Below, piece after piece: positions 5,690 to 46,970 of a stretch of DNA of 64,000 nt; within the stretch, counting starts at the first letter, position 1, and every line of letters begins with the position of its first letter. The notes beneath the pieces were generated by a model. It did not search any database, was not told the origin of the DNA, and saw nothing but the letters and a program-made list of their open reading frames with translations. The position numbers and the translations under genes are program-made. This stretch comes from a virus. The DNA lies in IMG/VR virus record IMGVR_UViG_3300043429_000130, positions 1 to 64,000 of that record, one strand, 5' to 3'.

Positions 5690-5705
5690 TTCACCCCTTT
5701 TTTTT
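5674..5705. terminator. Bidirectional terminator at the convergent strand switch
   Basis: A perfect ten-base inverted repeat, AAGGGGTGAA (5674-5683) with TTCACCCCTT (5690-5699), around a six-base loop and followed by a T run on the plus strand. On the minus strand it lies just after the stop of the 1647-residue gene and is followed by a weaker T-rich tract. It separates the plus-strand metabolic operon from the minus-strand virion genes. Confidence 0.92.
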
Positions 5706-8700
5706 AATATCCTGGCTGGATTCTAATATCCCAGTCTTTTCTAAAGTCTTCATCAAATGTAGCAGTTAGTAGCATAATTTCTTTAGCTACAGGTACCATC
5801 TTAGTAAAATACTTCAATGGCTTTGCATCTTCAGTCCACTCTTTGTCACCAATGAGCTGACCTCCTGCTTCCTCACTTAGATTTCCTAGAAACTTAAACA
5901 TGTCTTCAGCTAAGCTAATAACTGGTAGAGGACGTTGTACTAGTCTAGTAAACTCAAGTGGGTTATAGTAGAATGCAAACTCATTGTAGTATTTTTTAAG
6001 AGCTCTAGCTAAGTACTGCTTCATACCTTTATTTCTTCTATTCTCATCATCTCCTGATACTACTGAGAATACAGCTGCTGCAAAAGAGCTAAGAGTCATA
6101 AGTTCAGCTACCATGGAACGTAAGTTACCAATATGAATATCTATAAACTCTCCTTCTGTAATAGTAAACTCTTCTCCTTTTTCATAAGCTTCACGCTTAA
6201 GGTTTTCATATTTCTCTTTAGCTAATTCAACAGCATTGTCTCCAAAGCCAGTCATTATAGCTTTAAGTAGCTTACCTATTCTTTTACTGAATAGATCTCC
6301 AAAGAATGAATGGAACTTACCATACGTCCAGTTTTGTAACTCATCGTCATATCTTAATCCTTCTAATCTTTCTTCAATCATTTCAGGCATCCAAGATCTA
6401 AACTGCATAAGTCCTTGACCAAGTAGAGTAGTTCTAATGTTGTTAATATCATCTCTAGATTGGTTACCTACAATACGTTTGTTAACACCCTTAATTTTAT
6501 TTCTAAAGTCAGAGAAAGTTTCACTGTCTTTTTCAATTCCAGGTATAGTAAATTCACCTTCTGGTGAAAGTACACCCTTTACATATACACTTTCCTTTTC
6601 TTGAAGTTCTCCTACTTCTTTATCTATCTTAGCCATTAAAGCTTTACGGTCAGCACTAGAAAGATTGTAGAACTCATTGTTATAGTTATACTTAGCTTTT
6701 ACAAACTGTTGTATGTTTACAATCTTACCATCCTGTACCATGTGCTCCATCATCATAGCAATAGCTACTGGGTATTGTACAGCTTTATCACCCATACGCA
6801 TGAATAAGTAGAAGTTCTCATCTTTTAATACTCTGTTTGTACCAGATAGACTAAGCTCTTCTACCATAACATTAGTATTACCTTCCCCAAGAACATTCAT
6901 ATACTTTAGTGCAGCCCAAGCTTTTTTACTACCAGCAGCAGTGTACATAGCTTTAGCCCATGTTCTATTAGTAAAATAAATACCTTTTTGAGCCATGAAT
7001 AAAGCATTACCTGTACCACCAACAAATTGTGCAGTACCAGATAGAGGGTTCAAGGCGAGTGTTTTTAAACTAAAGAATCTCATAGCTGCTTGAGCAGTCT
7101 TTAAAAGAGAGTACTCTTTACCTAAAATTTTTACTTTAGCATCACTACTCTTACCTCCAATCCTATCATAGATGTAGAAGTTTACAAACTCTTCAAAAAT
7201 CTTAGCATTTCTATCATTATTATTTGCAGCTTTAGCTTTACCATTTTCAATAGTAACATTACCAAAGTTATCTGTAACTAAGCTTTTCTTATTACGCTCT
7301 ACTTCAAGAAGCATTTGTGATGAATCTTCAATACTATGCATAGCTTCATAGTTATACATGTGAGCAGACCATACCGCAAATACTTTAAATAGATCTCTAG
7401 ACTTTTTACTATAGTCTGTTTCTCCTGTCTCTTCATTCTTTACTCCAATATCAGTAGTAAAGTATACAGGTATACGATTGATTACACTACCATCTGTAGG
7501 ATCTACCTCTGGTGTATAAGTATTACCGGCATCAACCTGTAAGTTTTCAAATATACCTTTAGTGCTAAATACGTTCTTAATGTCTCCAAATACAAGCTGA
7601 TCAACTTTTGACTTATAAAGAGAAGGAATAAATCTTTTAGACTTCTTGTCTAACATACCAAGTTCTTCTGCTTCATCAACCAATCCTTTAAAAAAGTCAT
7701 AGACATCTTTAACAGGTTTGTTTTCAGGCTTTTGTAAGTTAGACCACTTTTCACTAAGCCATTGATCAGCAGGAACTAAGAAGTTATTACTTGGGTTAAG
7801 AAGAGCTTTAACGTTAATGGTTCCATTATCATTAAGAACCTTATGATTAAGAGACCACTCTTTAATTTTCTTTTCAATTATCTTTTCATTAACAGCTTCA
7901 TCTAAAGCATAGTTAACACTTTTAAAGTTTTCAATGGTTCTTTTTTCTTCAGCCTCATATCTTTCTTTATCATAATCCATGTTGTCTGCAATCCACTTAC
8001 TATTACCTACAAGTATGGCTTTCTTCTTAAGGTCATAAAACTCAGATGTATATTTTTTTAAGAAGTTACCATCCCAGTTTCCTTTCTGATCAATCTGAAG
8101 AATCATTTCCATAGCTTTATCTGCAGATATTCCTCTACCATTAGCCCATGTAAGAAATTTCTTCTTTAACAAGACCATCTTAGCTGCTGTGGAATCAAAC
8201 TTAGCATCTCTGTTATTCTGAGCAACACGCAGTAACTTAGAAAACAATCTAAAGCTTTTCTGTGAGATGTTACTTAGTGCACTAAACAATCCTCTATATA
8301 CATTTAGTGGAGCTTCTGCATCTAATATATTAAATATACCATTCTTCTTACCTAAGTTTTCAACTTGCTCTCTTCTATAATACTCAATGTCTTTAATTAA
8401 CTTATCTACTCTTGACGTCATGGTCAAGAATTTTTTATTCATTTCCTCATACTCAGCTTTAGCTCCTTTCTTTTTACTGTTTTGAGCTACATCAAAGTAC
8501 TGTTGTCTTAGATCATAAAGAAGTACTCCTGAGTCACTAAAAACTTCTAGGATTTTAATAGCATCTTGTATCTCTTTACCGTTTAATGTTTTATCATTAA
8601 GCATCTCTGAGTACTTTTTATACTCAAGAAGACCAAGCTCAATCAAACGATCCATCTTATTTTTAAGCTGTAGATCTCTAATAGCAACTCTAAGCTGAGC

Positions 8701-10647
8701 TAGCTCTTCACGCTTCTTATATAGTTCTTCTTTGGTATATCTTGTCTTATCAATCTTATCATAGATACCATTAAGCTTCTCTAATAGATCATCTAGCTGC
8801 GTATCTCCTGTACTTTCTGTACGAAGAGTAACAGGTAGTAAATAACTTTTATCATCTGGGATTAAGCTTGGATCAATATTACCTACTTCTAATTCCTTAA
8901 TAGTATCAATTTGACCATTCTTAATAGTGAACCTAGTTCTCATAGGAATACTACGTATCTTTCCAAACTTTTGGAAACCATACTGCAGCTGTAATATCTT
9001 ACGATAGTTCTCTAGCTGTATACGATACATAGTTTCTTTATAAGTCTTTAGGTCAGTTTGTGTCTTACCAACTTCCTGAGACTTCCAGTCATATATATCT
9101 ACAACACCATTTGGTTGTATTACTAACAAGTCAATACTACCACCAATCTTAGCTTTCTGGTCAAATACTTTAACCTCAGCCATAAACGTTGTACCTGGTT
9201 CATACTGAGCCATTACAGACTGAATGTATGTATTAAGCTTATTATAAATACCAGTAGGTAAAATAACTTCTATAGGACCTTGAGTATCACGCTTACTACC
9301 ATCATCATAAGTCCAACTGTTTACAATATTCTGAATCTGCTGATGAATTATATCACCAAATTCAGCTTTGTTTAAATCTATAAGTTTCTGTTTATCAGAT
9401 CTTTGGTCTGATCTAAATATCTTCTTAAGCCATCTATCTACATAAACAGATGTAACAGAACCTTTAGCATTCTCTCCTTTGTACTGATATATATGTCTTT
9501 TCTGTCCTGTTCTAGGATCAATGCTGTTATCAAGAGTAATATTAGTTTGATCAAGTTTTAATCCTTGAGTAGGATCAACTAACTGGTAGTATTCTTCATC
9601 TAGTTCTAGATCAGTATCTAGCATTTCTGTATTACCGTCTAGAATATTTTCAGCTGCAGTCTCAAAAGGATTATCTTCTGACTTATTAAATGCTTCTTTA
9701 ATAAAGTTCCATAGCTTATTCCACCAGTTCATCAAGAAACTAATACGTTCTTGAGTCTCGTTTCCAGCTTGCATTTGCAAAACATGCTGAGCAATCACTC
9801 TACCAATAGCTTCTTTCTTAATCTTATCAAAGTTAATACTTCCATCAGCGTTACGGTAGTCTCTTTTATTCTTATACTGCTCTACAGTGTCTGCATATAA
9901 CTTATACCCTGTAATTTTTGCAACCATCTCTTTGTACAAAGGATGACCGGGGCCTAACATTTCTACAAAAAAGTGAGCTGCTTCTTCTGGTAGTGTATCT
10001 AGTGATTCTAAACCATCTACTACCTGAACAATCTTATTAAGCATGTCTGCTTTAGCTGCAGCATCTCTAACTATATTACCCTGAGAGTCTCTGATTTCAT
10101 TTACTGACTGTACTGCTACGCCAATGTTTTCTAAGAACTTGGTTATTTTAGTTTTTAGATCTTCTGGTTGGGTAAACTCTTCTACAGTTTCAGTAGTAAC
10201 TGCTGGTTCTACTTCTTCCTTTGGCTCACGTATATCTGTAGTAAAAGGTGTATTAATAAGAAAGTCCTCATTAAGCTGCTCTATATTTGTTTCTAAAGCA
10301 TCATAAAACATTCTTACGTTACCTTCCTTATCTGTAAAAAGACCGTTACTAATTCTAGGCTCACCATTCTCATCTATTTCAGTAGATACAAATGATGCAA
10401 TACTCTCTAGAGTACCAGCATCCATACCTGGGTCTTCACGTCTAATACGCTCTAGTCTTTCCCAGTCACCAAACCAGTCTTTAAACTTAGTGGTATACAC
10501 TTGAGCCCAAAGCTTAAGAGCATCCTCTTTAGCTTCAGGTCCCATGATAGAAAGAATATCATCATAGAGTCTAGACTCTTTCCCGTTAGGAGCCAATACT
10601 CTTTCTACTTGTTTAGTCTCAGGATTACGAATTATACTACAAGCCAT
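5704..10647 (-). CDS. Giant crAss-like virion protein with PD-(D/E)XK-like nuclease motif
   Basis: A 1647-residue protein, last in the minus-strand virion unit, five bases after the polymerase polyprotein. The N-terminus has an APNGKESRLYDDI block and FKDWFGDWE, a pattern I associate with giant proteins of crAss-like phages. At about residues 221-229 is EEAAHFFVE, resembling a zincin helix with the first His replaced by Glu. At D506 (GGSIDLL) and D520-W-K522 (YDWKS) it shows the two halves of a PD-(D/E)XK nuclease site, with a basic helix region beyond. Long charged helical and coiled-coil segments fill residues 620-1000. In phi14:2-type phages proteins beside the virion RNA polymerase are packaged; co-injection with nuclease or processing activity is inference. 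Confidence 0.82.
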   Translation of the reverse strand: MACSIIRNPETKQVERVLAPNGKESRLYDDILSIMGPEAKEDALKLWAQVYTTKFKDWFGDWERLERIRREDPGMDAGTLESIASFVSTEIDENGEPRISNGLFTDKEGNVRMFYDALETNIEQLNEDFLINTPFTTDIREPKEEVEPAVTTETVEEFTQPEDLKTKITKFLENIGVAVQSVNEIRDSQGNIVRDAAAKADMLNKIVQVVDGLESLDTLPEEAAHFFVEMLGPGHPLYKEMVAKITGYKLYADTVEQYKNKRDYRNADGSINFDKIKKEAIGRVIAQHVLQMQAGNETQERISFLMNWWNKLWNFIKEAFNKSEDNPFETAAENILDGNTEMLDTDLELDEEYYQLVDPTQGLKLDQTNITLDNSIDPRTGQKRHIYQYKGENAKGSVTSVYVDRWLKKIFRSDQRSDKQKLIDLNKAEFGDIIHQQIQNIVNSWTYDDGSKRDTQGPIEVILPTGIYNKLNTYIQSVMAQYEPGTTFMAEVKVFDQKAKIGGSIDLLVIQPNGVVDIYDWKSQEVGKTQTDLKTYKETMYRIQLENYRKILQLQYGFQKFGKIRSIPMRTRFTIKNGQIDTIKELEVGNIDPSLIPDDKSYLLPVTLRTESTGDTQLDDLLEKLNGIYDKIDKTRYTKEELYKKREELAQLRVAIRDLQLKNKMDRLIELGLLEYKKYSEMLNDKTLNGKEIQDAIKILEVFSDSGVLLYDLRQQYFDVAQNSKKKGAKAEYEEMNKKFLTMTSRVDKLIKDIEYYRREQVENLGKKNGIFNILDAEAPLNVYRGLFSALSNISQKSFRLFSKLLRVAQNNRDAKFDSTAAKMVLLKKKFLTWANGRGISADKAMEMILQIDQKGNWDGNFLKKYTSEFYDLKKKAILVGNSKWIADNMDYDKERYEAEEKRTIENFKSVNYALDEAVNEKIIEKKIKEWSLNHKVLNDNGTINVKALLNPSNNFLVPADQWLSEKWSNLQKPENKPVKDVYDFFKGLVDEAEELGMLDKKSKRFIPSLYKSKVDQLVFGDIKNVFSTKGIFENLQVDAGNTYTPEVDPTDGSVINRIPVYFTTDIGVKNEETGETDYSKKSRDLFKVFAVWSAHMYNYEAMHSIEDSSQMLLEVERNKKSLVTDNFGNVTIENGKAKAANNNDRNAKIFEEFVNFYIYDRIGGKSSDAKVKILGKEYSLLKTAQAAMRFFSLKTLALNPLSGTAQFVGGTGNALFMAQKGIYFTNRTWAKAMYTAAGSKKAWAALKYMNVLGEGNTNVMVEELSLSGTNRVLKDENFYLFMRMGDKAVQYPVAIAMMMEHMVQDGKIVNIQQFVKAKYNYNNEFYNLSSADRKALMAKIDKEVGELQEKESVYVKGVLSPEGEFTIPGIEKDSETFSDFRNKIKGVNKRIVGNQSRDDINNIRTTLLGQGLMQFRSWMPEMIEERLEGLRYDDELQNWTYGKFHSFFGDLFSKRIGKLLKAIMTGFGDNAVELAKEKYENLKREAYEKGEEFTITEGEFIDIHIGNLRSMVAELMTLSSFAAAVFSVVSGDDENRRNKGMKQYLARALKKYYNEFAFYYNPLEFTRLVQRPLPVISLAEDMFKFLGNLSEEAGGQLIGDKEWTEDAKPLKYFTKMVPVAKEIMLLTATFDEDFRKDWDIRIQPGY

Positions 10648-10652
10648 AGTTA

Positions 10653-13600
10653 TTATGCTTTACCTTTATTACATTTTACAGACTCCTCTTCTTTTTTAGA
10701 GATAGTTTCGTCCACTTCATTATTATCTTTTACTTTTCTTAAAGCTTTCTCAGCTAGAGCTTTTAACCCATTGTTCTGAGTTTTTTCTCCTTTAAGCTGT
10801 TCCATAGCTTTTATGAATTCTGGCTCTCTCATCAAGTCCTTAGCAGATTTATAACCTTCGGCTGCAGTTAAAGCTGCTTTAGTATCCATCTGCATTACGT
10901 TACTTGGTAAGATTGACTCTTGATCATCTTTATAGATCTCAAGCATACGATTACCGTTACCAACTTTAGAAATAGGAATGTATAGAATCTTTCCTTTTTT
11001 ATCTTTCTGATCAGTCTTTTCAAATAGTATTGGCTGATAAGCTTGAAGAATAGTTTTATTCTTCTTCATCTTCTTAAGCTCTTCTCTACTAATCTTAGGG
11101 TCACGCACATACTTGATCAAAAAGTCATTTAGACTAACAGAGCTATTAGGACTAATAGATAACTCACCATTTTTAACTTTTATCCATGATGGTGCTTTAG
11201 CAACTATGGATCTGTTGAACCAGTTATTTTGATGGAAGCTTCTCCAAACTTGATCAGTTGATATAACAGGGTTTAGTTTAAATCTATCTAAGATTGTTTT
11301 TACAAGTTCAGAGTATATCTCAGTACTTAATACTTTCTTATAGTCAATAAAACTAGACTGCATACCTGACTGCAATATACTAAATTTAGCTAGGTCATCA
11401 GCAAACTTTACAAGATCTTCATCAGCTGTTTTCTCACCATAGCTTCTTAGGTTATTGTAAGCTTCTATAACATTGTTTATCTCAAAAGTATCCATCTTGT
11501 TTCTAAACAACATGATGTTATCTGTTTTAGTAGCATCATCTGTCATCATAGGTATTAACTCCTTGATAATCAAGTTATCAGATATGTTTGGATCTTCAGA
11601 ATTTTTAAGCTTATATAGTTTAGCAGGGAATGAATTATTACCTGTAAACAAGTCCTTATACATATTATTAAGAGTTTCCTCTTTACCTTCTGCATTTATG
11701 TATGAAGTAGTATGTAAAAGATATGCAACTACAAAGTTTTGGTACTTGTTAATAAGATTAATAGCGTCATCCTTCATCATAAAGAACTCTGGGTTATCAA
11801 TCTTTTCATATAATGGTTGGAAAACCTCTTGGATTTCAGGAGACAATGTTATAAAGAAGTCTCTAAACAAGTTAAAGATATCTTCCTTTTGCTTTTTTAG
11901 TTCTCCTAAAAACGTATTATCAAGGATATCTTCTGGATTGTTTATGAAGTTTTCTTGTTTAGATCTTTCCCAACGACCAATCTGTAGCATGTTTTCTTGT
12001 ACAGTTTTGGTCTTATTAGTATCATAACCAATAGCTTGCATAAAGTTAGACATCAATCTAGCCTGTGCTTCATACTCAACATAGTCCATAAGAATAGCAA
12101 TCTGTAATCTAGCATCAGCATTGCTGCCATCTTTGATAGCTTTCTTAAGATCTTCAGGTTTAAATGACTCTACGCTATCTTTAATTTCATTAAGCTCAGT
12201 TAATACAATGCTATAGATTGCATCTTCAGATGCTTTTCCATTTTTCTCTGCACCAGCTAACATAGCCATTAAATCTCCACCAACTACTTTATTATAGTAT
12301 GGAGCAATAACTTTATAGAATAACTCTTTTCTAGTTAGATTCTCACCGTTGATCACTTTAAAGGAAGAACGGTTCTTAGAGATCTCTTTAAATAAGCTAT
12401 CTAATACTGGCTGGTTAAAGAAGTAAGCCACCTCTTCTACTGGTACACCATGGTGCTGTAAATAGAACCATGTATTAGCTGTATTAAGTGAGAAGTTAAG
12501 GTCAAATACAAATGGATCTTTAGCTCCATCCACAAAGCCTGATAGAGCTTGAGAGATTAAGTCACTGATATAATCACCTGCTTTATCTAGAATGTGACCT
12601 ATAGAGTATAGTCCATTCTCATCTCTGCCGTGATGATTGAGCTTAATATTTACAGTTTTAGCATCCTCACCTTTAGCGTTAAGATAGTATAAGCTCTTTG
12701 AACTATATTTATTATTTAGCTTAAGACCACTAACCTGAGACATTACATGGAATGTAGAATGTAATGCGGCAATACCAACCATTCTCTTAGCTGTTAAGTA
12801 ACGCTCACGGATACTGTTAGATCCAATAAATGTTCTTAAGTAAGTAGGAGACTTCTCATCTTCTAGTTGTTTAGTACCAGCATCTACCTTCCATCCCTTA
12901 ATATCTTCTGCAAGATCTTTAAGAGTGTCTGTAGTGTTAGGTGCAACAAGCTGTGCATAGTTTTCAGGTCTAAGAACTAACTCAGACATGATATTTATGA
13001 GCTTGTTCTGTAAACTTTCTTTAGTTCCTAAGTTATCTTTAATATAACGAATAGTCTTTTTACCCTTTACAGAAGCGTTATATCTAGTTATACTAGCTTT
13101 AATAAACGCTAAGTCTTCTTGTGTTTCTTTAGAAGCACTAATATCACTTAAGCTGCTTTTAGCTCCTTTAATAAGTTTGCCATTATCTTTATAAGTAGAT
13201 TGGTTAATCTGCTTAAATTGATCAGGCGTAATAATACTTAATACATTATCAATATATTCTTGACTAGCTCCTGCTGATAGCATATCTGCTGTCATAAAGT
13301 CTTTGAACTCTTGACTAGAGTAGTCTCTACCTAATAAATCTACATAGTAGTTACCTAAATAGATATTAAGTTTATCTATATCAAAGTCAGATCCAGCTTT
13401 ACCAACAATTTCAGAAGGTACTACAACCATATCACCATTAGCAGCTGGTGTAAATCCTTTAATGATAATACTTTCTATAGAGTTCATACCTTGAGTAGGA
13501 ATACGGAAGGCAATAGCTTTAAGCAGCTCATTGTCTAAACCGTTAATACCACCTTCAGGCATTCTATAAATACCATTTTCAAGTTTTAATCCTAACTCTT

Positions 13601-16600
13601 CTGGAGTAACTTCAGTAAATGGCCATGTTATATACATTTCAGCAGCTTGAACTTTACCATCTTTAGAATGGTAAAACTTAAGATCTGATGACTGCATACG
13701 AATAGATGCCTTTTCTTCAGGAGTTAATGCTTTTATTTCTGACTTAGTAAGTGTCTTGTAAACACCATCTTTAAGATATACATAGTTTCTTGGTGCTGAC
13801 TCATATAATGTACTAGCCGCTTGTGGAGAAGATTTACCGCTCATCTTCTGAGAGATAACTCTACTATCTACAATAGAGTTAAGAATGTTATCTATCTTAT
13901 CACGGTTAATCAACGTATCAAACTCATACTCCAAAGACTGTGTATCATTTTCATTTGTGATATAGTTGATAGCATTAATCATGTTATCAGGTAAGTCTCT
14001 GTTCTCAGCTTCTTTTCTTAAAAGACTAACCAATCTAGATATATCCTTTGTGGTATACTCAGTATCATTTTTTCTTTCAAGACCAATTTCTTTTAGTAGT
14101 TCTTCTTTACCAAGTTTCATCATCTCACGAAGAGTATCATTATACTCCTTGATAAGAAGACCTATAGCTTCATTTACAGGCTTTCCGTTTTCATAGAAGT
14201 TACTCATTACTTGTTTAGTAACCTGAGTACCTTTTACTACAAACTTCTTAGGCTTGCTAGATTGTTCTACTTGAATACCGTAGAATCTACTGTATAAACT
14301 TTGACGTGGTAAATCAGCAGCAAGTTGATAACCTTTATTTGTAGTTTGAATGTTTACATCCCCAGCTTCAGTATATACTGGAACAAAGTTTCCTTCAGCA
14401 GTAGTTACGTTACCTACTTTTTCTCCAGACTCAAATCCAATAACATCTACCTTTTCTTTCTGTGCGGCTATATAAAGCTTTTCAAACTGGCTACCTTCAA
14501 CGTGACGGTAAAACTTAGGTTGTAAAGCATGCTTTAAGAATACAGGGTGTGTAACATTATCTGTTACGGCATATCCAAAGTACTGAGGTTTTAACATCTC
14601 AAATATATATCCTGGGTTTCCTTTATCAAATGTTTCTTGAGCAGCTTGAATTTCTGCTTGTGTAGCTTTTTTATAACGAGGGTCTGTCTTTTTAATAGTC
14701 TCACCTTTAGCATTACGCATGCTACCAGAACGTACAAGAGTTTCATAAGCAATCTCATAATTCCACTGTGCTTTACGCTGAGCTGTAAACTTACCACTCA
14801 TAAATAGAATATCTCTAATTACGTCTGGTAAACCCATAGCCATAGCATCAGCTTCATTCAGATTCATGTAAGCTTTAATGACTCCAGTAAACTCTTTCTT
14901 TCTGTTTAAAATAAAACCAGTTATTTGACCCTGCTCATTAAATCTAGCACCAACTTTCTTTTCTGCTTTATCTTTAGGTATACCAGATTCAATCATCTGA
15001 TTATAAGTACTCTGTGCAATATCTTGGTAGAAAGCACTAACTACATCCATATCTTTAAATGATATGTTTTTAATAGTCTGATGTACCTCAGAAGAACGTA
15101 ACTTACCATCGTTACGTACCATGTTCATATCCATCCAGTCTATAACATCACTGTCCTCTACAAAAGCTTCTTTAGTAGAAGTAGCTCCGTTAGCACGTTT
15201 AGGTAAGTCTTTATATAAAGCTGGGTGACCATAGATCAACTTATGTTGCTCTGTCAATAAGATTTCCTCATTAAGAGCAAGAATAGCTGCTATAGTTTTT
15301 ATGTTTTCTTCAGTGTAACCACTGCGTGTTTTAGACTCAGAGTCATATCCTGCAGTGTTATAATGCAATGTTTGTTTCTCTGCAGTACCTAACATTTCAT
15401 CTAAGCTTTCATTATCAATAGCATCAGTAACATATAAGTCACTATTAAAGCTATTAGGCTTAATGAAAATATCTAAATCTTTTAAGAATGCAGCTGTATC
15501 CTCAATCTTAAAATTAATGTAAGTAGCTATCTTATCTTCAAGAGCTTCTCTATTTTGTTCTACAAAGTCTTCACGCTCTAACTCACCATTGATAACATCT
15601 TTATTAAACTTAGCAATTAAATCTGGACCAATAATATCTCTAAAGTGTCCTAAGTTAAATACGTTATCACGGTAGTATTGAATATCTACAGGAGCTATTG
15701 ATTGTATTTCAGCAGCATCTAGTTCATCTATTAGCTGATTCATGTACATGTCTATGATAGTTCTATTATCATCCTGCATCATTCTTTCAACATCTCTTCT
15801 AGAAACCATTAGCTTTCCAGGGATACCGATACCATATTCAGTACTCTTATCTGAGTTAATGTTAGAGAATACAGTGTTGTTTAATAAGAAATGAATCTTA
15901 TTAGCTACACGCTCAGGGAACTGAAGCTTAGCTGTATTATTACCATCCACTTCTGTAATACCTAAACCAGATATTACGTGGAATGTAAGCTGTGTATTAT
16001 TCTTACGTTTACCGTTAATATCAAATAAGCGTCCACCTTTCTTAAGTAGTTCAGAATTAGTTTGATAAGCATTAAACACAACCTCTCCAGTCTCTTTATC
16101 TATAGTTCCTAACCAAGGAGCAGTTTGAATAAGTTCTTCTTGAGAGTTTACAGTGTTTAAGATATTAATCATATTACTTAACAAAGATGGTTGACCAACG
16201 CTAAACTGTTGTTGACCCTCTGCATTATTATAACTTAAGATGTTATCTTCACTGTTAAACTTAGACTCAATAGCAATAAGGGTATTAATTCTACCACCTA
16301 CTACGTTTCTACCAAATAGATCAGCTATGTCTTCAATCTCTCCAGACTTCATTACATCTAAAATCTGTAATGTTTGTTCACGGATACTTTGTTCAAACTG
16401 AGCTAAATCATTAAGTGTAGCATTAAACTCAATACCTAAAGAGCTTAGTGCATTTAAAGCTGTAGCTAAATCATAACTACTTCTATTTCTAGCTGTATCC
16501 ATTAGATCAAGATAGTCATCTGACTTTCTATTGATCATCATACGTCCAGAAGAATCAATCTTAACTATCTGAGTCTGTTTGTTTTGAACAGCTATCTTAA

Positions 16601-19600
16601 GATTGTTAGCCCACTCATTACGAATTCTATCATCATTTACGTTAATAAGTGGATTAGTATTATAGATGTAACCCTCATCAGAAATAATAAGCTTTTCTGG
16701 GGTAAATCTAGCATTACTAAAGCTCTTAGTAAATGAAACTCTAAGCATCAAATCTTCTTCACTTAAAGAAGAAGCTGGTATCACCTTACCAAGATTGTTT
16801 TCATATTTAAGACGAAGCTTAAGGTTACGTAACCAACCGTAGTTTTCACGGTAGTTATTATCTTGTAGTCTATACTTTTTATCTAACTTTTGAAACATTA
16901 GATTTAAAGTGTTCTTACGAATGCCGTTCTTATCAACAATACTTACAACGTTGCTAAGCTCATTTAATAATGTAGTATGTACTCTATCTGTATTAACTAA
17001 GCGTGGTTGATTAAGATCATTCTTAACAAGTACTGTTTTACCCTTCACTACAGTAGTTTGAGGTAAAGAAGCAAGAAGTAACATAACGTTTGTAGACGTC
17101 ATTTTTCTTGGATCAATAGTAATAGCATCTCTAATACCTAAAGTATCAGTTACATCATTCTCATCTTGCTCAATTTCTGAGAAGATAACACCGTATCTGT
17201 CAAGGTTCTTTTTGAACTCTCTGTAAAAATCATCTTTATAAGCCTCAACAATAGACTTAATTTTAGGACTTACTAATGTAAGATTATTAATAACCTGTTC
17301 AGTAGCTGTATTCCATAAAGATGATAGTAAAACATTAGACTCTTTCTTATCTAGACTGCCAAGAATACTATCAATGTTATTACCTTTCTTAAATAGCTCA
17401 GTAAAGAAATAATAGTTCAGACCTTCTAAAATATCTGAAGTATCTTTTTGTGTTAAATCTGCTACTGCTTTATAAGATGGACCTGTAAGTCTATTGTCTT
17501 TTATAAACTTAGCATTCTTAAATTTACCGCTACCAATCTTCTTGAATAGTTTATTAATAGAACTATTCATCTCTGTCTTATCTTTAGTAGAAAGATTGAA
17601 CAAAGCCTGAATACCTTTCCATAAATTTTTAAAGAACCTTGCTATCTTATTACCAATAGATTGATCTAAAAGAATATAACTACGGAATTCTTCTGCAAGC
17701 ATTTCACGTACATCATACATACTAGCTTCAGAATAAGGTTTAGTTTCTCTGCTAAACTTATTATAGAATGTACCTTCACGAGATTTAAACTCAGATGCTA
17801 ATTCAAACTTCTCATCTTGAGTTAAGAAAGATGCCCATACAGCTTCAAACGCTTCATGGAAACCAGTACCTAACCCAGCATTTTCATAGATATAAAGTGC
17901 TCCTCTCATAAAGGCACCTAAACCTTTACCATGAATAAGATGACCCATCTTTTTAATAGGGAACATAGGAAGCTTTTCTTTCATGAACTTAGCTAACTTA
18001 GCAAAGTCTTCTGTAGCTTCCATCTCTCCTACATCTAAACGGAAAGGAGGTTCTTCAGAGTCAATATCAAGTTGTGCAATTAAAGCCTTGGTTAACAATG
18101 CTTTAGCTGCATTTATATTACCAGAAGGAATACCTATAACAGCTTCAGCTAGTTTAACTACTTCTTGCGTCTTAACATTCATCTGGTATACAGCAGCTGT
18201 TAGCTTACCATTCTCTGGTACAGCGTTTGCTACTGCTTCTTCTACACTAAAGAAAGGACCTTCTTGAAGAGACTCTGTTGATGTAGTTACACCAGTTAAT
18301 GGTTCTCTACCTGATAGTCTATCAGCTTGTGATTGTTCTGATACAATTACACCAGCTGTTGTTGATGTAGATTCTGCATTCTTTTGAGCAAGTCTTAAAC
18401 CTTCTAAGAAAGCTTCATCAATTACTTCTTTAGTAGTATGTGTAAAGTCACTATACTTTAATAATAACTGAGCTTTATCTGGATTTTGTTTGAATGACTC
18501 TACAACTAAATCTCTCATTAGCTGTAAGTTATCAAAGCCTTTCTTTACTGCTTTACCTCTAATCTTAGTACCATAACCACCTACTGCAACATACTTATCA
18601 TATGTGGCTTGATCAAAAGTACCTGACTTGTTAGTTTGATAAGCATGCTCTACACTACCATATTCATTTCCACTCCAAGTAAATGTACGAGGAGCTAGAT
18701 TAGAAAGTTCTCTAGTATTAGTTTCACTTTCTGGACCACTCCAATATACGTTAATTACTGGTTTAGTAGGTTGCACAACAGGAGCTGTAGGCTGTTGCCC
18801 AGTAGCTTTAGTTTCTGCAGCTTTTTGTATAGCTTGGGCAGCAAGTTGTTTTAAACCACGATTGACTCCGTATATATACCCAGTAACTTGTGTGATGCTT
18901 TTAAGAATCTCACTTCTATTTTCTTGTATTTCTTTTTGATTAACAAAAAGCTTAGATAACTTAGGCTTAAGTTTTGGACCTTCAATTTTAATTACAAATC
19001 CACCTTGTTGTACTACATAGCTAATCTTAAAACCACTAAGTTCAATCTCGTTACGAGACATATCTAAGAACTCATCAATCTTATCATCCATTAGTTCAGA
19101 AGAACCCTTTACTTTAGGTATAGGTTTCTTCTTAGCAGCTTTTTGTTCTTGAGAAACTTCTGGCTCAACTATAGATGGATCTTTCCATATAAGCTGAACT
19201 TGAGTACGTTGAGGAGTACTAGAATCATATAAAGGTAAAGAGGTATACACTGGAGGTGTAGTACCATCTTCTCTAGCAGCAAGTAAGTATTCTTCGTAAG
19301 AGTCAAAAGACTTATCACGAACTGCTTTATCTTTTACAAACTTAATAGTGTCAAAGCTATCATTGTTCTGTAACGCAACGTTATTTACGTGATGAGTAAG
19401 TCCTTTAACTAACTTGTCTCTATTCTTAAGAATACTTTCTTTATCAAAATCAATCTTAAAGCTACCTCTATGAAGTCCACTTTGAACCCAAAAGTATTTA
19501 TCAGAAGACTTTCCTTTTACAGGACGGCTCCAGTTAACAATATGCTTTAAGTAATCTTCAATTAGTTTTAATTCAGCTGCATCTTCTTTAGATAAAGCCT

Positions 19601-22600
19601 TAGTTCTCTTCTTACCTAAAGCAGCATTATATCCATACTTTTGAATATAAAGATCTGATAGTCTTACTAATGCCTTAATAAAGGTATCTTTTTCTACATC
19701 AGTTAAGTCACGGTTAAATACACGAACAACCTTATCACCATAGATCTTCTTACCGTTCTCCATGGTATACTCCTGCATAACCAAACGGCCAGGTTGAACA
19801 CCTGCCATTACTACACCACGTCCAGTAGATACCCTTAGACCAATGTTTACATCAGGATTGCTTGCACTTCTTAAATCTGTAAAGTCTGGGTTCTCTGTAA
19901 TTACACGACCCTCTACTTCAGATTTAGAAAGTTGACGTTTACCATCTTCACCTATAGCAGTAGTAAATTCAATTCTTTGGATACCTGGTAATGCACTAAC
20001 TACATCTAGATATACATTACCTTCTTTAGTACGATCTACTAAAGATTGCTGAAAAGCTTTATGATCATCAATAGCCTTCTGAATATCTTCATCAGAAGTC
20101 ATTTCTTCATTTACAGTATAGTCTCTCTTAACTCTTTCTACATCCCAGCTCTTAACATCTGCTAAAGAACGATATATAATATTATCTTTAGACTCTTGTC
20201 CTTCTGGAATTAGTTCATTGTTTACATCTACGTAAGCATATTTAACTGTACCGTCAGCTTGTGGTAGTTTCTTTACAAGGACAACCTTAATATCATCTGC
20301 ATTAAATTCAGTATCACGTATAGAGAACTGATCATTATCTGCAGTGACTACTAAAAAACCATAGTTACGACCAACTAAGTTATATTTACCAGTAAACTGA
20401 AAAAATCTATCAGTACCATTTTCTTGATTAGGAACAGTATCCTCTGTATCAAGATACTGACGTCCAAAGGTTTTATTAAAACCAACCACCTCAAACTTAG
20501 GTCTTCTTCCTTCCTCACTAAATACTGTACTAGTTTCCTCAAGTTCTTCAGAGTCTTCTTGACTCTCTTCTTCAGGAGTTTTCTTTATAGCTTTTTTACG
20601 AGACTTTTTTACTTCTTCTTTTACCCAACCTTCTCTATCTAATATAGCAGCTAGTTCTTCTGCATCAACAATTTTTGGATCTCCTTCATTAAGTTTAATA
20701 GTAGCAGACTTATCTTCTTCGTTAACATCTACTATCTCAAGCTTAGAGACTTCACCACTTTCTTCATCTGTTCTATTATATACATCACCTACAGTAAACT
20801 CAGTAGTATTTTCTACATTATCATCTGTATCATAAGTGACAGAAATCTTTTTACCAGATGGTATTGGTGAAACTACAGGCTTAGGTCTAGATGCTTGTTC
20901 TTTAAGTTGTGAATCTACAACAGATAGCATGTCATCAGATAAAGCTTCTAAGAAGTTTTTCTTACCGTTAATAGTATCTGCATACTTAGCCCACTCTAAA
21001 CCAATACTCTTAATATGATTCTGTAACTCACCTTTAAGCTTAATCTTTTTATTTAAGTTATCAGTAACACCTGGCTGGTTACGATCTTCTTTCTCATATT
21101 TAAAGAAACCGTTCTCATCTTTCTCAAGAGTCTTAACAGTTGTCTCATTATCTTTTTGTAGCTTATCAAAGCTTTTCTTTAAACCATCAAGTACATCACG
21201 AGCTACAGTTTCTAGGTTTGTAACAAACCCTTTCTTCTGCATAGCTTCAATAACTTCTTCTTGAGATTTAATTCTGTACTGATATTCGTTAAGCTGATCT
21301 ACAATACCATCTGATAGAGAACTATTCTCTGTAGATAGTAAATCATTCTTAACTTCAGTTACTTCTGTTAACAGGTCATTAAGAATAGTCTTATAAGCTG
21401 CTTGTTCAGCTGCTATATTAACCATCTTATTTTTACGAGCTACATCATCCTGAGTACCATCAAACATGATGTCAGAATTCATAAGCTTGTTCTGTCTAAT
21501 AATAGAAGCGGCTAGTCCTTTATATCTATTGATCTGAGTATCAATATCTTCACCTAAAACAAAACCTAGTTTAGCTATTTGTTCTGGATCAGACTTTCTA
21601 ACTGCATCTAGCTTTTGATCAATAGTTCCTTCAACACCAGCATTTATATGTGCTACCACAAACTGTGCAAATGCTGTATCTCTTAATGCATCTTTCTTAA
21701 ACTTATCATTTACTTTAGTAGACTCATCTAATGCAGAGTTTACTGCTCTAAAAGAAGCTGCAATACCAGCAATCTTTTCATTATTTAGAATAGGTTGGTT
21801 GTTCTCATCATACACAAGTTGTTCCTTTTGTATAAGATTACCAGCCTCATCTGTAGACTCTACTATTTTAGTTTTGTATACATTACCAAACTTAAGCCAG
21901 TTTTCTTGAGCAGCATTATACATCTCAACAGATGATTGAGTAGCTGCTTGATCACGGTTAAATTGTCTTAAGCTACCAACAGCTGAACCAAAACCTCCAA
22001 GTATACCACCAATACCAATACTAACTGATGCTTCTGGATCGTTACCTTTTAAAGCTTCTGCTGTTTGTTTAAAGTATTGATCAAACACTTCACTAGTCAT
22101 AGATAGATCAGTCATACGTCCTTTAGTACCGTATGCTTCATTAATTCTCTGAATAGCAAGCTGTGCATTTTCTTCTACAAAACCTTCAATTGCTACACCT
22201 TGTCCAACACCACTTATAAACGCTCCTTTCTTAGAGTTAAGAAAACGCTCTATACCTGATGTAGCAGCTCTTACTCCCATGCTTTCACCAAACTCTGTAG
22301 CCCCAGTTACTGCACCTGCAATACCTGGAGTCTTACCAAAAGCTTGACCTAACCATTTAAGTTCAAATGCATTTGTTGCGGCTAATAAGCCAGCATTCAT
22401 TAAAAAAGTATTCTGTGCAGCAGCTCCTGAAATACGTGCTTTCTCTTGTTCAGTGTATGGTGTTCCATCTTCTTTAAGACGCATTCTACCAAACTCATCA
22501 TAAGTTAAAGAATCCATTACCCTATCTTTAACTTCTTTAGCTTCAAACATAGACTCTGAAGCTGTAGCCAAAGCCCAAGCATTAAACTTATCTAACCTAC

Positions 22601-23432
22601 TAAAAGCAGTAGCAGCATTCCTTGTATAGTTAGCAGCGGCACCAGCTCCTTCTATAGCAGCTTCTGCAGCACCTACACCAATACGTAATCCTGAAATACC
22701 TCTTGCTAATCTTGCTCCTAATGATAACTTACTTAAAGCTAAACCAGGAACCCATGCTGACACTAAAAACGCAACACCGTCTACAGCATCCGTCATCCAG
22801 AAATCTCCATCTGTAAAAGCTCTAGACCAAAAACCTTTATCTCTATCTTCTGCTTCTTGATAAGTAGGTAACCATTCATTCTTAGATTTTTCATCTAAGC
22901 TTTTAAATAAATCTGAAAAAGCATTATCTGATGCATTACTAATAAGGTCAGCATCCCAGTTTTCTGGGTTAAGTAAACTACCAATAAAACCTACACCTTC
23001 ACCAACTTTACTAACAATACCTACACCTAATCTTGCTGCACCTTTACCAAAAGTTTTAAAAGCTCCTTCTTGTTGACCATAGAAGTCATCATTGTCTATA
23101 CCATAGACATAACCATAGTCAGTACCTTCATACTTTTTAGTAATGTCTTGTGGTGTAACTTTAGGAGCAAGCCATGCTTCTCCAGAAAGTGGAAAAGCTC
23201 TCTTACCTATCATAGAGGCTGCATTAACAGCCTGCTCATAAGTTAATTTTTTACCTGGAGGATCTTGTTGTACAGGAGCTACTACTTGTTGTGGCTCAAG
23301 TGTTTCTACAGGAGCAGGGGGTTCTACTACAGGAGTATCTTCAACAGGAAGCTCTTCTGTATTAGGTAAACCTTCAACCATAGTATCTGGTATATTAGAT
23401 AAGTATTCTTGCTCAAAAAGATTTTCAGCCAT
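10653..23432 (-). CDS. Giant virion RNA polymerase polyprotein (DFDID motif) with NADAR-like and zincin-like regions
   Basis: A 4259-residue protein, extreme even for phages. The DFDID motif starts at residue 3349 inside AGSDFDIDKLN. This is the magnesium-binding loop of the two-barrel RNA polymerase described for phi14:2 gp66, which is packaged and injected to transcribe early genes. Segments in order: Pro/Val-rich N-terminus (1-60); hydrophobic Ala/Gly-rich stretches (about 210-500) that could insert in membranes; coiled-coil region (500-900); NADAR-like domain (about 1558-1685, SNLAPRTF and SVEHAYQ); zincin-like helix with HEAFE (about 1857) in place of HExxH; long unassigned middle; polymerase core around 2900-3700; helical tail. 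Fusion of parts that are often separate genes is likely. Proteolytic maturation is possible but unproven. Confidence 0.88.
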   Translation of the reverse strand: MAENLFEQEYLSNIPDTMVEGLPNTEELPVEDTPVVEPPAPVETLEPQQVVAPVQQDPPGKKLTYEQAVNAASMIGKRAFPLSGEAWLAPKVTPQDITKKYEGTDYGYVYGIDNDDFYGQQEGAFKTFGKGAARLGVGIVSKVGEGVGFIGSLLNPENWDADLISNASDNAFSDLFKSLDEKSKNEWLPTYQEAEDRDKGFWSRAFTDGDFWMTDAVDGVAFLVSAWVPGLALSKLSLGARLARGISGLRIGVGAAEAAIEGAGAAANYTRNAATAFSRLDKFNAWALATASESMFEAKEVKDRVMDSLTYDEFGRMRLKEDGTPYTEQEKARISGAAAQNTFLMNAGLLAATNAFELKWLGQAFGKTPGIAGAVTGATEFGESMGVRAATSGIERFLNSKKGAFISGVGQGVAIEGFVEENAQLAIQRINEAYGTKGRMTDLSMTSEVFDQYFKQTAEALKGNDPEASVSIGIGGILGGFGSAVGSLRQFNRDQAATQSSVEMYNAAQENWLKFGNVYKTKIVESTDEAGNLIQKEQLVYDENNQPILNNEKIAGIAASFRAVNSALDESTKVNDKFKKDALRDTAFAQFVVAHINAGVEGTIDQKLDAVRKSDPEQIAKLGFVLGEDIDTQINRYKGLAASIIRQNKLMNSDIMFDGTQDDVARKNKMVNIAAEQAAYKTILNDLLTEVTEVKNDLLSTENSSLSDGIVDQLNEYQYRIKSQEEVIEAMQKKGFVTNLETVARDVLDGLKKSFDKLQKDNETTVKTLEKDENGFFKYEKEDRNQPGVTDNLNKKIKLKGELQNHIKSIGLEWAKYADTINGKKNFLEALSDDMLSVVDSQLKEQASRPKPVVSPIPSGKKISVTYDTDDNVENTTEFTVGDVYNRTDEESGEVSKLEIVDVNEEDKSATIKLNEGDPKIVDAEELAAILDREGWVKEEVKKSRKKAIKKTPEEESQEDSEELEETSTVFSEEGRRPKFEVVGFNKTFGRQYLDTEDTVPNQENGTDRFFQFTGKYNLVGRNYGFLVVTADNDQFSIRDTEFNADDIKVVLVKKLPQADGTVKYAYVDVNNELIPEGQESKDNIIYRSLADVKSWDVERVKRDYTVNEEMTSDEDIQKAIDDHKAFQQSLVDRTKEGNVYLDVVSALPGIQRIEFTTAIGEDGKRQLSKSEVEGRVITENPDFTDLRSASNPDVNIGLRVSTGRGVVMAGVQPGRLVMQEYTMENGKKIYGDKVVRVFNRDLTDVEKDTFIKALVRLSDLYIQKYGYNAALGKKRTKALSKEDAAELKLIEDYLKHIVNWSRPVKGKSSDKYFWVQSGLHRGSFKIDFDKESILKNRDKLVKGLTHHVNNVALQNNDSFDTIKFVKDKAVRDKSFDSYEEYLLAAREDGTTPPVYTSLPLYDSSTPQRTQVQLIWKDPSIVEPEVSQEQKAAKKKPIPKVKGSSELMDDKIDEFLDMSRNEIELSGFKISYVVQQGGFVIKIEGPKLKPKLSKLFVNQKEIQENRSEILKSITQVTGYIYGVNRGLKQLAAQAIQKAAETKATGQQPTAPVVQPTKPVINVYWSGPESETNTRELSNLAPRTFTWSGNEYGSVEHAYQTNKSGTFDQATYDKYVAVGGYGTKIRGKAVKKGFDNLQLMRDLVVESFKQNPDKAQLLLKYSDFTHTTKEVIDEAFLEGLRLAQKNAESTSTTAGVIVSEQSQADRLSGREPLTGVTTSTESLQEGPFFSVEEAVANAVPENGKLTAAVYQMNVKTQEVVKLAEAVIGIPSGNINAAKALLTKALIAQLDIDSEEPPFRLDVGEMEATEDFAKLAKFMKEKLPMFPIKKMGHLIHGKGLGAFMRGALYIYENAGLGTGFHEAFEAVWASFLTQDEKFELASEFKSREGTFYNKFSRETKPYSEASMYDVREMLAEEFRSYILLDQSIGNKIARFFKNLWKGIQALFNLSTKDKTEMNSSINKLFKKIGSGKFKNAKFIKDNRLTGPSYKAVADLTQKDTSDILEGLNYYFFTELFKKGNNIDSILGSLDKKESNVLLSSLWNTATEQVINNLTLVSPKIKSIVEAYKDDFYREFKKNLDRYGVIFSEIEQDENDVTDTLGIRDAITIDPRKMTSTNVMLLLASLPQTTVVKGKTVLVKNDLNQPRLVNTDRVHTTLLNELSNVVSIVDKNGIRKNTLNLMFQKLDKKYRLQDNNYRENYGWLRNLKLRLKYENNLGKVIPASSLSEEDLMLRVSFTKSFSNARFTPEKLIISDEGYIYNTNPLINVNDDRIRNEWANNLKIAVQNKQTQIVKIDSSGRMMINRKSDDYLDLMDTARNRSSYDLATALNALSSLGIEFNATLNDLAQFEQSIREQTLQILDVMKSGEIEDIADLFGRNVVGGRINTLIAIESKFNSEDNILSYNNAEGQQQFSVGQPSLLSNMINILNTVNSQEELIQTAPWLGTIDKETGEVVFNAYQTNSELLKKGGRLFDINGKRKNNTQLTFHVISGLGITEVDGNNTAKLQFPERVANKIHFLLNNTVFSNINSDKSTEYGIGIPGKLMVSRRDVERMMQDDNRTIIDMYMNQLIDELDAAEIQSIAPVDIQYYRDNVFNLGHFRDIIGPDLIAKFNKDVINGELEREDFVEQNREALEDKIATYINFKIEDTAAFLKDLDIFIKPNSFNSDLYVTDAIDNESLDEMLGTAEKQTLHYNTAGYDSESKTRSGYTEENIKTIAAILALNEEILLTEQHKLIYGHPALYKDLPKRANGATSTKEAFVEDSDVIDWMDMNMVRNDGKLRSSEVHQTIKNISFKDMDVVSAFYQDIAQSTYNQMIESGIPKDKAEKKVGARFNEQGQITGFILNRKKEFTGVIKAYMNLNEADAMAMGLPDVIRDILFMSGKFTAQRKAQWNYEIAYETLVRSGSMRNAKGETIKKTDPRYKKATQAEIQAAQETFDKGNPGYIFEMLKPQYFGYAVTDNVTHPVFLKHALQPKFYRHVEGSQFEKLYIAAQKEKVDVIGFESGEKVGNVTTAEGNFVPVYTEAGDVNIQTTNKGYQLAADLPRQSLYSRFYGIQVEQSSKPKKFVVKGTQVTKQVMSNFYENGKPVNEAIGLLIKEYNDTLREMMKLGKEELLKEIGLERKNDTEYTTKDISRLVSLLRKEAENRDLPDNMINAINYITNENDTQSLEYEFDTLINRDKIDNILNSIVDSRVISQKMSGKSSPQAASTLYESAPRNYVYLKDGVYKTLTKSEIKALTPEEKASIRMQSSDLKFYHSKDGKVQAAEMYITWPFTEVTPEELGLKLENGIYRMPEGGINGLDNELLKAIAFRIPTQGMNSIESIIIKGFTPAANGDMVVVPSEIVGKAGSDFDIDKLNIYLGNYYVDLLGRDYSSQEFKDFMTADMLSAGASQEYIDNVLSIITPDQFKQINQSTYKDNGKLIKGAKSSLSDISASKETQEDLAFIKASITRYNASVKGKKTIRYIKDNLGTKESLQNKLINIMSELVLRPENYAQLVAPNTTDTLKDLAEDIKGWKVDAGTKQLEDEKSPTYLRTFIGSNSIRERYLTAKRMVGIAALHSTFHVMSQVSGLKLNNKYSSKSLYYLNAKGEDAKTVNIKLNHHGRDENGLYSIGHILDKAGDYISDLISQALSGFVDGAKDPFVFDLNFSLNTANTWFYLQHHGVPVEEVAYFFNQPVLDSLFKEISKNRSSFKVINGENLTRKELFYKVIAPYYNKVVGGDLMAMLAGAEKNGKASEDAIYSIVLTELNEIKDSVESFKPEDLKKAIKDGSNADARLQIAILMDYVEYEAQARLMSNFMQAIGYDTNKTKTVQENMLQIGRWERSKQENFINNPEDILDNTFLGELKKQKEDIFNLFRDFFITLSPEIQEVFQPLYEKIDNPEFFMMKDDAINLINKYQNFVVAYLLHTTSYINAEGKEETLNNMYKDLFTGNNSFPAKLYKLKNSEDPNISDNLIIKELIPMMTDDATKTDNIMLFRNKMDTFEINNVIEAYNNLRSYGEKTADEDLVKFADDLAKFSILQSGMQSSFIDYKKVLSTEIYSELVKTILDRFKLNPVISTDQVWRSFHQNNWFNRSIVAKAPSWIKVKNGELSISPNSSVSLNDFLIKYVRDPKISREELKKMKKNKTILQAYQPILFEKTDQKDKKGKILYIPISKVGNGNRMLEIYKDDQESILPSNVMQMDTKAALTAAEGYKSAKDLMREPEFIKAMEQLKGEKTQNNGLKALAEKALRKVKDNNEVDETISKKEEESVKCNKGKA

Positions 23433-46313: not shown

Positions 46314-46970
46314 TTATACAATTGTACCTGTACCACTCACTTTAATTTGTGAGCCAACAAATGCTCTAAATGTTTGAGGAGCATTTTGTACTACAGTAAT
46401 ATTAAAGATTTGATGATTGGTTCCTGTAGCTTTAATAACAGTTGCACCGCCTGACAATGCTGTACTAGGTGCTGCTGAAGCTACAAATAAAGTTGTATTA
46501 GTAACACTTGCTACAGTAGTTCCTGCAGGAAATGCCCCAACACCAGCCGTTACTTCTAAAGTCATACCTGCTACTAAACCAGTTGTACTACCTACAGTGA
46601 TAGCTGTACCATTACTTGTTGCACCTGCTGTAGAAGTATAAATAGGACCAAGTCCTAAATAACTTACTACCATTGGTGTAGTTGTAGTAGATGTAGCTGT
46701 ATAGTTAGCTAATGTAATAGCCGGGCTAATTACACCATTAAGTACTTTATGTAGTTTAGTCAATACAGTAAGTAAACGATCACCGTTAAGAATACCAAGA
46801 GCTGGAAGATTAGGTCCAGCAAACTTTACACAATCAGTAAACAAAATCTCATCACATGGTTCACCACTTACACAAGGAGGTAAACTCACTGAGTTTGTAG
46901 GAGAGCAATCTGCACAACCATCGTTGCAGTTACCTAAAGGTAGGGGAGTATCGTTACAACCGCATGACAT
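46314..46970 (-). CDS. Cys-rich virion protein with Gly/Thr/Val-rich C-terminus
   Basis: A 218-residue protein. The first 40 residues hold eight cysteines (CGCNDTP, CNDGCADC, CVSGEPC). Residues about 44-85, DCVKFAGPNLPALGILNGDRLL, match the GPDLxCIxLCNGD module of the 410-residue protein, so both may share a virion-attachment domain. The rest is Thr/Val/Ala-rich, with alternating small and beta-branched residues as in fibrous beta structures. Likely a tail or capsid decoration protein. Expression is expected to be late and coupled to its neighbours. Confidence 0.6.
   Translation of the reverse strand: MSCGCNDTPLPLGNCNDGCADCSPTNSVSLPPCVSGEPCDEILFTDCVKFAGPNLPALGILNGDRLLTVLTKLHKVLNGVISPAITLANYTATSTTTTPMVVSYLGLGPIYTSTAGATSNGTAITVGSTTGLVAGMTLEVTAGVGAFPAGTTVASVTNTTLFVASAAPSTALSGGATVIKATGTNHQIFNITVVQNAPQTFRAFVGSQIKVSGTGTIV

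Follow-up and report, generated by a model that had tools for sequence, protein, structure and literature searches.

The window, the whole 64,000-nucleotide stretch that was analysed, carries on its minus strand a giant ORF in which a NADAR-type domain is embedded. The principal features were as follows.

10653..23432, minus strand: giant ORF of 4259 aa, unbroken, a gp47-like cargo protein fused ahead of the catalytic subunit of a crAss-like virion RNA polymerase; carries the NADAR domain
18246..19040, minus strand: variable linker slot holding the NADAR domain (residues ~1465-1729; blastp and alignment)
18357..18767, minus strand: NADAR domain (residues ~1556-1692; phrog_1017, YbiA profile, AlphaFold2, and Foldseek)
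17844..17858, minus strand: HEAFE, zincin-like motif (residue 1859), just downstream of the NADAR slot
13374..13388, minus strand: DFDID, polymerase catalytic motif (residue 3349; profile matches)

The first-pass annotation had read the motifs SNLAPRTF, GNEYGSVEHAYQ, and KIRGKAVKK, within residues 1558-1685, as a NADAR (YbiA-type) signature. The coordinates and motifs were recovered exactly as described: positions 18378-18761 encode residues 1558-1685 of the 4259-aa ORF, and no other ORF covers those bases. The signature lies well above chance level and was borne out by PHROG, NCBIfam, profile, and fold matches. Searched against the whole 4259-aa protein, phrog_1017 matched residues 1572-1661 (E 4.5e-7). 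The NCBIfam YbiA-type N-glycosidase model (TIGR02464) matched the isolated NADAR segment at 1.4e-4, below its curated cut-off, and a profile of 11 relatives found E. coli YbiA (2b3w) in the PDB at 2.6e-5. Profiles were required, as Pfam and single-sequence PDB searches with the window domain gave no match. The Pfam NADAR model (PF08719) did not match the window domain at E 0.1 or 0.001 and did not reach its curated cut-off, and the domain was therefore considered a divergent NADAR member. The same model matched a member of the window's clade (L027) at 0.009, and its cut-off was exceeded by other polymerase-fused NADARs (L097, L060, and the cr126_1 polymerase, the last at 1.7e-13). With T4 gp30.3 as the phmmer query, no real PDB match was obtained.

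Fold prediction, which had been proposed as a check of the signature, returned a NADAR fold. The AlphaFold2 model built from 52 homologues had a pLDDT of 96.9 and a pTM of 0.90. The YbiA fold is characterised by five core helices and two small sheets. The top three Foldseek matches in the PDB were 2b3w (probability 1.00), 8bat (1.00), and 8bau with ADP-ribose (0.97), which are the three solved NADAR structures; the remaining PDB matches had probabilities of at most 0.05. A model from 11 relatives only (pLDDT 87) gave the same order. Judged by these models, residues 1556-1692 almost certainly adopt the NADAR fold. A second NADAR was looked for within the 119,642-base record and none was found. 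A chimera or assembly error was rejected, as contigs from other metagenomes (L001 and L002/L003) share the architecture at 87-89% identity.

The pocket residues were compared with those of characterised NADARs in an alignment of 52 relatives, in which the window residue equals the alignment position plus 1552. The sole invariant columns were S25, N26, F32, E43, A45, Q47, K50, M87, and H113. The residues of the putative catalytic centre and its C-terminal tail were located as follows.

18648..18650, minus strand: catalytic Glu E1595 (position 43, A4), equivalent to E43 of the P. nicotianae NADAR and E88 of the E. coli C7 NADAR; 52/52 relatives; role from PMC11543638
18627..18629, minus strand: catalytic/phosphate Lys K1602 (position 50, A4), equivalent to K50/K95; 52/52; role from PMC11543638
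18438..18440, minus strand: phage-type catalytic His H1665 (position 113, A4), replacing E125/D171; 52/52 (PMC11543638, PMC11125620)
18417..18419, minus strand: D1672 in the FTHxTxxxIDxxFxxGLxxAQ tail; Asp in 16/16 clade members

All 52 relatives have the E43/K50-type pair, with Glu and Lys spaced by seven residues, and in the last strand a His in place of the acidic residue of other NADARs. The Glu and Lys are needed for guanine-ADP-ribose hydrolysis, and in phage NADARs the Glu or Asp found elsewhere in the family is replaced by His (PMC11543638, PMC11125620); in the E. coli C7 NADAR the matching catalytic residues were proven by mutagenesis (PMC11543638). The usual C-terminal WG-x-G-x-N-LG block, which the first-pass annotation had described as not evident, was missing in the alignment too. 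The Trp column of this block held W in 36/36 other members and was deleted in 16/16 members of the window's clade, which have an ID motif instead. The absence of the block is hence real by alignment and defines a clade (0/16 versus 36/36). The Trp contacts pyrophosphate in the ADP-ribose complex (PMC11543638). Substrate contacts must differ in this clade. The earlier suggestion of a binding-only domain, drawn from the missing block, was not supported: T4 gp30.3, which ends in ...KHSIASGLTKDDTILTEAEFIDVLNLLRDSL, likewise has no WG block and hydrolyses guanosine-ADP-ribose in vitro (PMC11125620). The missing block is therefore no argument for lost catalysis, and it is not required for NADAR membership. 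We predict that the window NADAR is catalytically active, and consider this likely.

The carrier was assigned by profile searches. A 320-residue profile around DFDID matched the phi14:2 virion RNA polymerase 6vr4 at 1e-50 and aligned through DFDID, and the N-terminal profile matched crAss001 gp47 (1.1e-64) and then phi14:2 gp77, in succession. On these profile matches, the window protein is identified as a gp47-like cargo protein fused to a catalytic polymerase. The earlier description of an injected polymerase stood as far as homology to the virion RNA polymerase goes; the NADAR domain, however, lies in the gp47-like N-terminal half and not in the polymerase half. With a gp47-like part, a NADAR, a zincin-like motif, and a polymerase in one polypeptide, the protein combines several distinct domains as polyvalent proteins do, its delivery being suggested by homologues. 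A zincin fusion is annotated in p-crAss gp45 as well. The phi14:2 proteins gp76-gp78 are annotated in their record as structural proteins from MS/MS, and virions of crAss001 contain gp47, gp49, and gp50, for which ejection as cargo has been modelled (PMC10172136). By analogy with these homologues, we infer that the window protein is packaged in the virion and ejected with the genome, and it is very probable that the NADAR is delivered in the virion. The large neighbours of the window polymerase polyprotein also look like virion or cargo genes.

Single cysteines at the protein ends mark the junctions between these giant proteins, which are otherwise nearly devoid of cysteine. Only 141 cysteines were counted in the 326,130 aa of 82 distinct crAss-like polymerase ORFs, 78 of which have a Cys among their final 10 residues. 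In almost all loci the protein that follows the polymerase begins M-x(1-4)-C, and this Cys is usually the only one in its 1600-2200 aa. In the window, these are Cys 4254 of the polymerase ORF (10671-10673) and Cys 3 of the ORF at 5704-10647 (10639-10641), and the terminal-cysteine pattern was also seen in L182, L186, L187, and L183. The only cysteines of phi14:2 gp78, gp77, and gp76 are the last residue, residues 3 and 2179 (of 2180), and residue 3, respectively; those of crAss001 are 2339 in gp47, 5, 1334, and 2404 in gp50, and 5 in gp49. An N-terminal Cys in the polymerase was paired with a C-terminal Cys in the upstream ORF (8/0/0/27, p 4e-8). In loci such as that of the window, where the first two proteins are fused and the polymerase ORF has no N-terminal Cys, a C-terminal Cys is missing from the upstream ORF too. 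Read most simply, this pattern suggests that the ejected proteins may be joined end to end by a disulfide or similar covalent chain, with a peptide bond instead when genes fuse. In one crassvirus structure paper, disulfides were mentioned only in portal-vertex and tail proteins. Compared with the Cys-poor cargo, two minus-strand ORFs in the structural region of the window were cysteine-rich (46314-46970, 8 Cys in the first 47 residues; 47552-48784, 20 Cys in 410 aa).

We further investigated how the NADAR is distributed among such carriers. The window's NADAR clade was present in DFDxD polymerase ORFs of 21 contigs (the window counted, with a few near-duplicates); in L019, L027/L028, and L029 it was found in adjacent ORFs for cargo or internal virion proteins. 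No stand-alone gene of the clade occurred among the loci seen, which speaks for selection of the polymerase location. The domain was upstream of the polymerase core in the window, L001, L013, L014, L020, and L025, and downstream of it, near the C-terminus, in L004, L015, L022-L024, L026, and others. In L017 (9995-10408) it was seen ~33 residues behind DFDID, adjoining the active-site domain. Lineages that keep the Trp were fused to polymerases too (L060, L097, L138, L157, L159, and L181). Trp-keeping phage-type NADARs were additionally observed in ORFs of up to ~6000 aa that have no DFDxD (L131-L146, L151, L162, L174, and similar), and these are probably other injected polyvalent proteins. A scan of genome contigs for a bacterial donor of the clade gave only a distant 31% match. 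In a polymerase-first sample, 6/80 loci (~7%) carried a NADAR, and the domain is therefore dispensable.

Relatives with and without the domain defined the slot. Among those without it, L033 and L034 are the closest; no NADAR could be aligned in their corresponding linker, and blastp against L033 broke at stop-to-stop residues 1469/1733. L013 and L076 are ~76% identical overall with nearly identical flanks, and an unrelated segment of L076 sits exactly at the position of the L013 NADAR. This segment is itself a candidate for another injected counter-defence domain. Between the polymerases of cr126_1 and the cultured phage frurule, identity is 87%; the alignment covers residues 1-38 of cr126_1 and resumes at residue 211, and the NADAR occupies the gap. 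The DAC15 polymerase also has no NADAR. The slot is a route to new counter-defence domains, in that whatever replaces the NADAR there, as in L076, is a candidate. The close relatives with and without the domain (cr126_1 versus the cultured Bacteroides phages frurule and DAC15) make the idea of a delivered enzyme that acts ahead of gene expression directly testable.

The NADARs were 70-93% identical where polymerase cores shared 20-30%, and over all pairs NADAR identity did not follow core identity (r = 0.04). Identities of NADAR versus core were 90% versus 29% for L022/L024, 93% versus 50% for L013/L014, and 86% versus 25% for L016/L020, in which the domain lies on opposite sides of the core. 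The L016/L020 NADARs had a dS of 0.56, which is unsaturated, and a dN/dS of 0.14. Because synonymous divergence is unsaturated on unrelated cores, these identities reflect recent NADAR transfer and not protein conservation. Close NADAR pairs had dN/dS values of 0.08-0.18, and the domain is under purifying selection. On the polymerase tree, whose long branches make the number rough, presence and absence of the NADAR required at least 9 changes, 8 of them forced by well-supported branches. Comparison of these sequences identifies the NADAR as an exchangeable cassette that is swapped horizontally among polymerase polyproteins. It could be argued that the NADAR and polymerase descended together without exchange and that the NADAR merely evolves slowly, given that it is shorter and more conserved and that the polymerases are described as very fast-evolving (PMC7886860). 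However, the unsaturated synonymous divergence, the varying position relative to the core, the eight or more presence changes forced on the tree, and the with/without pairs (cr126_1 versus frurule, L013 versus L076) all speak against it, making co-descent highly improbable, and slow evolution without exchange was rejected on these grounds.

The polymerase polyproteins carry other modules in changing order. AlkB-type oxygenase, Pif1/UvrD-type helicase, and cpYpsA/SLOG modules were observed at L097:12626-16108, L157:6689-13048, L014:17363-18187, L020:3999-7178, and L138:2548-7065. AlkB-type 2OG-Fe(II) oxygenases were found in the NADAR-bearing polyproteins of L097, L157, L159, and L014, that is, in 4/23 polyproteins with NADAR versus 1/64 without (one-sided p 0.016, rising to 0.055 when L157/L159 are treated as one). 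cpYpsA/SLOG occurred beside the NADAR in L020, L060, and L138 and in 0/64 scored as without NADAR (one-sided p 0.017). Both enrichments are modest and rest on small counts and on search models partly derived from NADAR-bearing proteins, and the full Pfam library was applied to C-terminal extensions only. Helicase modules were not associated with NADAR (3/23 versus 6/64, p 0.69), though helicases and DUF7831 are also found near it. A weak 2H phosphoesterase match was present downstream in L016, and the polymerase record of cr130_1, annotated as DprA-like, holds a NADAR match. The AlkB-type modules hint at nucleic-acid repair and SLOG at small signals. As a separate observation, the cr131_1 polymerase (L191:10779-11574) appears split at DFDID, with a downstream ORF that starts MFDIDHLY after an inserted small ORF, suggesting that an intron or intein interrupts the catalytic motif. 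When cr131_1 and the related cr130_1 and cr272_1 are read with table 11, many in-frame stops appear, which suggests recoding.

Weighing these results, we slightly favour a catalytically competent phage-type NADAR ADP-ribosyl-N-glycosidase, carried as an injected cassette, with guanine ADP-ribose as the likeliest substrate. Packaged in the capsid as part of the virion RNA polymerase polyprotein, the NADAR would enter the cell with the polymerase and DNA, be active before any phage gene expression, and remove ADP-ribose placed by a host defence enzyme, most likely from ADP-ribosylated guanine in incoming DNA or early transcripts. The first-pass annotation had already proposed a delivered enzyme of early infection: a NADAR fold in a homologue of ejected cargo, the kept catalytic residues, the repeated recruitment into the same injected-protein class, and purifying selection fit that part of the proposal, and its binding-only variant did not hold up. 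Catalysis, substrate, and a DarT1-like or other guanine ADP-ribosyltransferase as opponent are predictions. A counter-defence role is probable, and guanine-linked ADP-ribose as the main substrate is an even call. All NADAR subtypes tested so far, T4 gp30.3 among them, release ADP-ribose that is attached to guanosine in DNA or RNA (PMC11125620, PMC11833690), and the AlkB-type modules in the same polyproteins hint at a nucleic-acid substrate. Counting against this explanation are the deleted pyrophosphate-contacting Trp, the SLOG companions, the dispensability of the domain, and the failure of T4 gp30.3 and YbiA to protect cells against E. coli DarT1 in spite of their in vitro activity (PMC11125620). 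This failure, together with a genome-wide survey that argued for small ADP-ribose derivatives as the targets of most phage NADARs (PMC9503650), leaves the anti-DarT role first proposed for the domain plausible and a DarT1-type toxin as the main opponent doubtful.

The survey's argument speaks for a rival reading, an injected NADAR that would not act on DNA, and would instead destroy small ADP-ribose-derived signals or toxins of NAD-consuming defences, or handle RNA-repair by-products. The occurrence of cpYpsA/SLOG only in polyproteins scored with NADAR, the DprA-like annotation of cr130_1, and the phosphoesterase match in L016 are consistent with this. Nevertheless, guanosine-linked ADP-ribose in nucleic acid is the substrate of all NADARs tested biochemically, AlkB-type modules co-occur too, and the SLOG association is partly selected, its search model having been derived from these very NADAR-bearing proteins; we regard this reading as a serious rival, though somewhat unlikely. 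A domain that has lost catalysis and serves as a sensor or anchor, by binding to ADP-ribose or to nucleic acid that carries it, would account for the deletion of the pyrophosphate-contacting Trp (PMC11543638) in all 16 clade members, and is improbable in view of the invariant Glu, Lys, and His and of the activity of T4 gp30.3 (PMC11125620). Even less is to be said for a YbiA-like role in metabolism, in which an enzyme packaged by chance would clear reactive riboflavin intermediates. The best curated name match, TIGR02464, is indeed a riboflavin-intermediate N-glycosidase, but the match is far below the cut-off of that model, the phage-type His replaces the Glu of the YbiA subfamily, and a metabolic enzyme has no sensible place in an injected cargo protein; we give this reading almost no credence.

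Returning to the injected hydrolase, phages are mostly pictured as mounting counter-defence with genes that are expressed once the DNA has entered the cell. As part of the delivered polymerase, the enzyme would be at work from the outset, before the first transcripts can be blocked by defences that modify DNA. As a tentative extension, the polymerase may be a modular injection platform into whose fixed linker slots phages trade small counter-defence cassettes (NADAR, AlkB-type, SLOG, and others), so that the polymerase that opens the template would carry the enzymes that clean template and transcripts of host base modifications in the first transcription round.

Several known systems resemble the window domain. 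T4 gp30.3 and other phage NADARs (PHROG 1017; PF08010/PF08719) have the fold, the catalytic Glu/Lys, and the phage-type His in common with it, and T4 gp30.3 shares the absence of the WG block. However, T4 gp30.3 is small and stands alone, whereas the window NADAR is a cassette in a virion polymerase polyprotein with its own FTHxTxxxIDxxFxxGLxxAQ tail. The DarT1-associated NADAR antitoxins (BC4488 family; E. coli C7 and G. lovleyi 8bat) share the fold and the catalytic Glu and Lys, but have Asp171 where the window domain has His; no DNA-binding N-terminal extension like theirs was identified in the window protein, and no DarT partner was seen. E. coli YbiA (2b3w) and the P. nicotianae NADAR (8bau) are among the best structural matches; the catalytic Glu of the YbiA family is His in the window domain, and the Trp block is absent.

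Polyvalent phage proteins (PMC5512222) are, like the window protein, large injected multidomain proteins with interchangeable conflict-related domains. They include an ART fused to N4-type virion RNA polymerase, and NADAR is not mentioned in that paper; the window carrier is an unrelated two-barrel crAss-type polymerase. Viral NADARs outside RNA-virus polyproteins have been called typically stand-alone (PMC9503650). In the searchable literature, which covered few subscription papers and is not proof of novelty, no discussion of a NADAR fused to a crAss-like polymerase was found. The cr126_1 polymerase of an uncultured crAss-like phage (QOR59539.1, annotated in GenBank as 'DUF1768 domain-containing protein') has a NADAR fused to the virion RNA polymerase as in the window; unlike that of the window, its NADAR is of another sublineage, keeps the Trp block, and is inserted near the N-terminus. 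That NADARs are often packaged into virions was proposed before (PMC9503650); what is new here is the NADAR as an exchangeable cassette in polymerase polyproteins.
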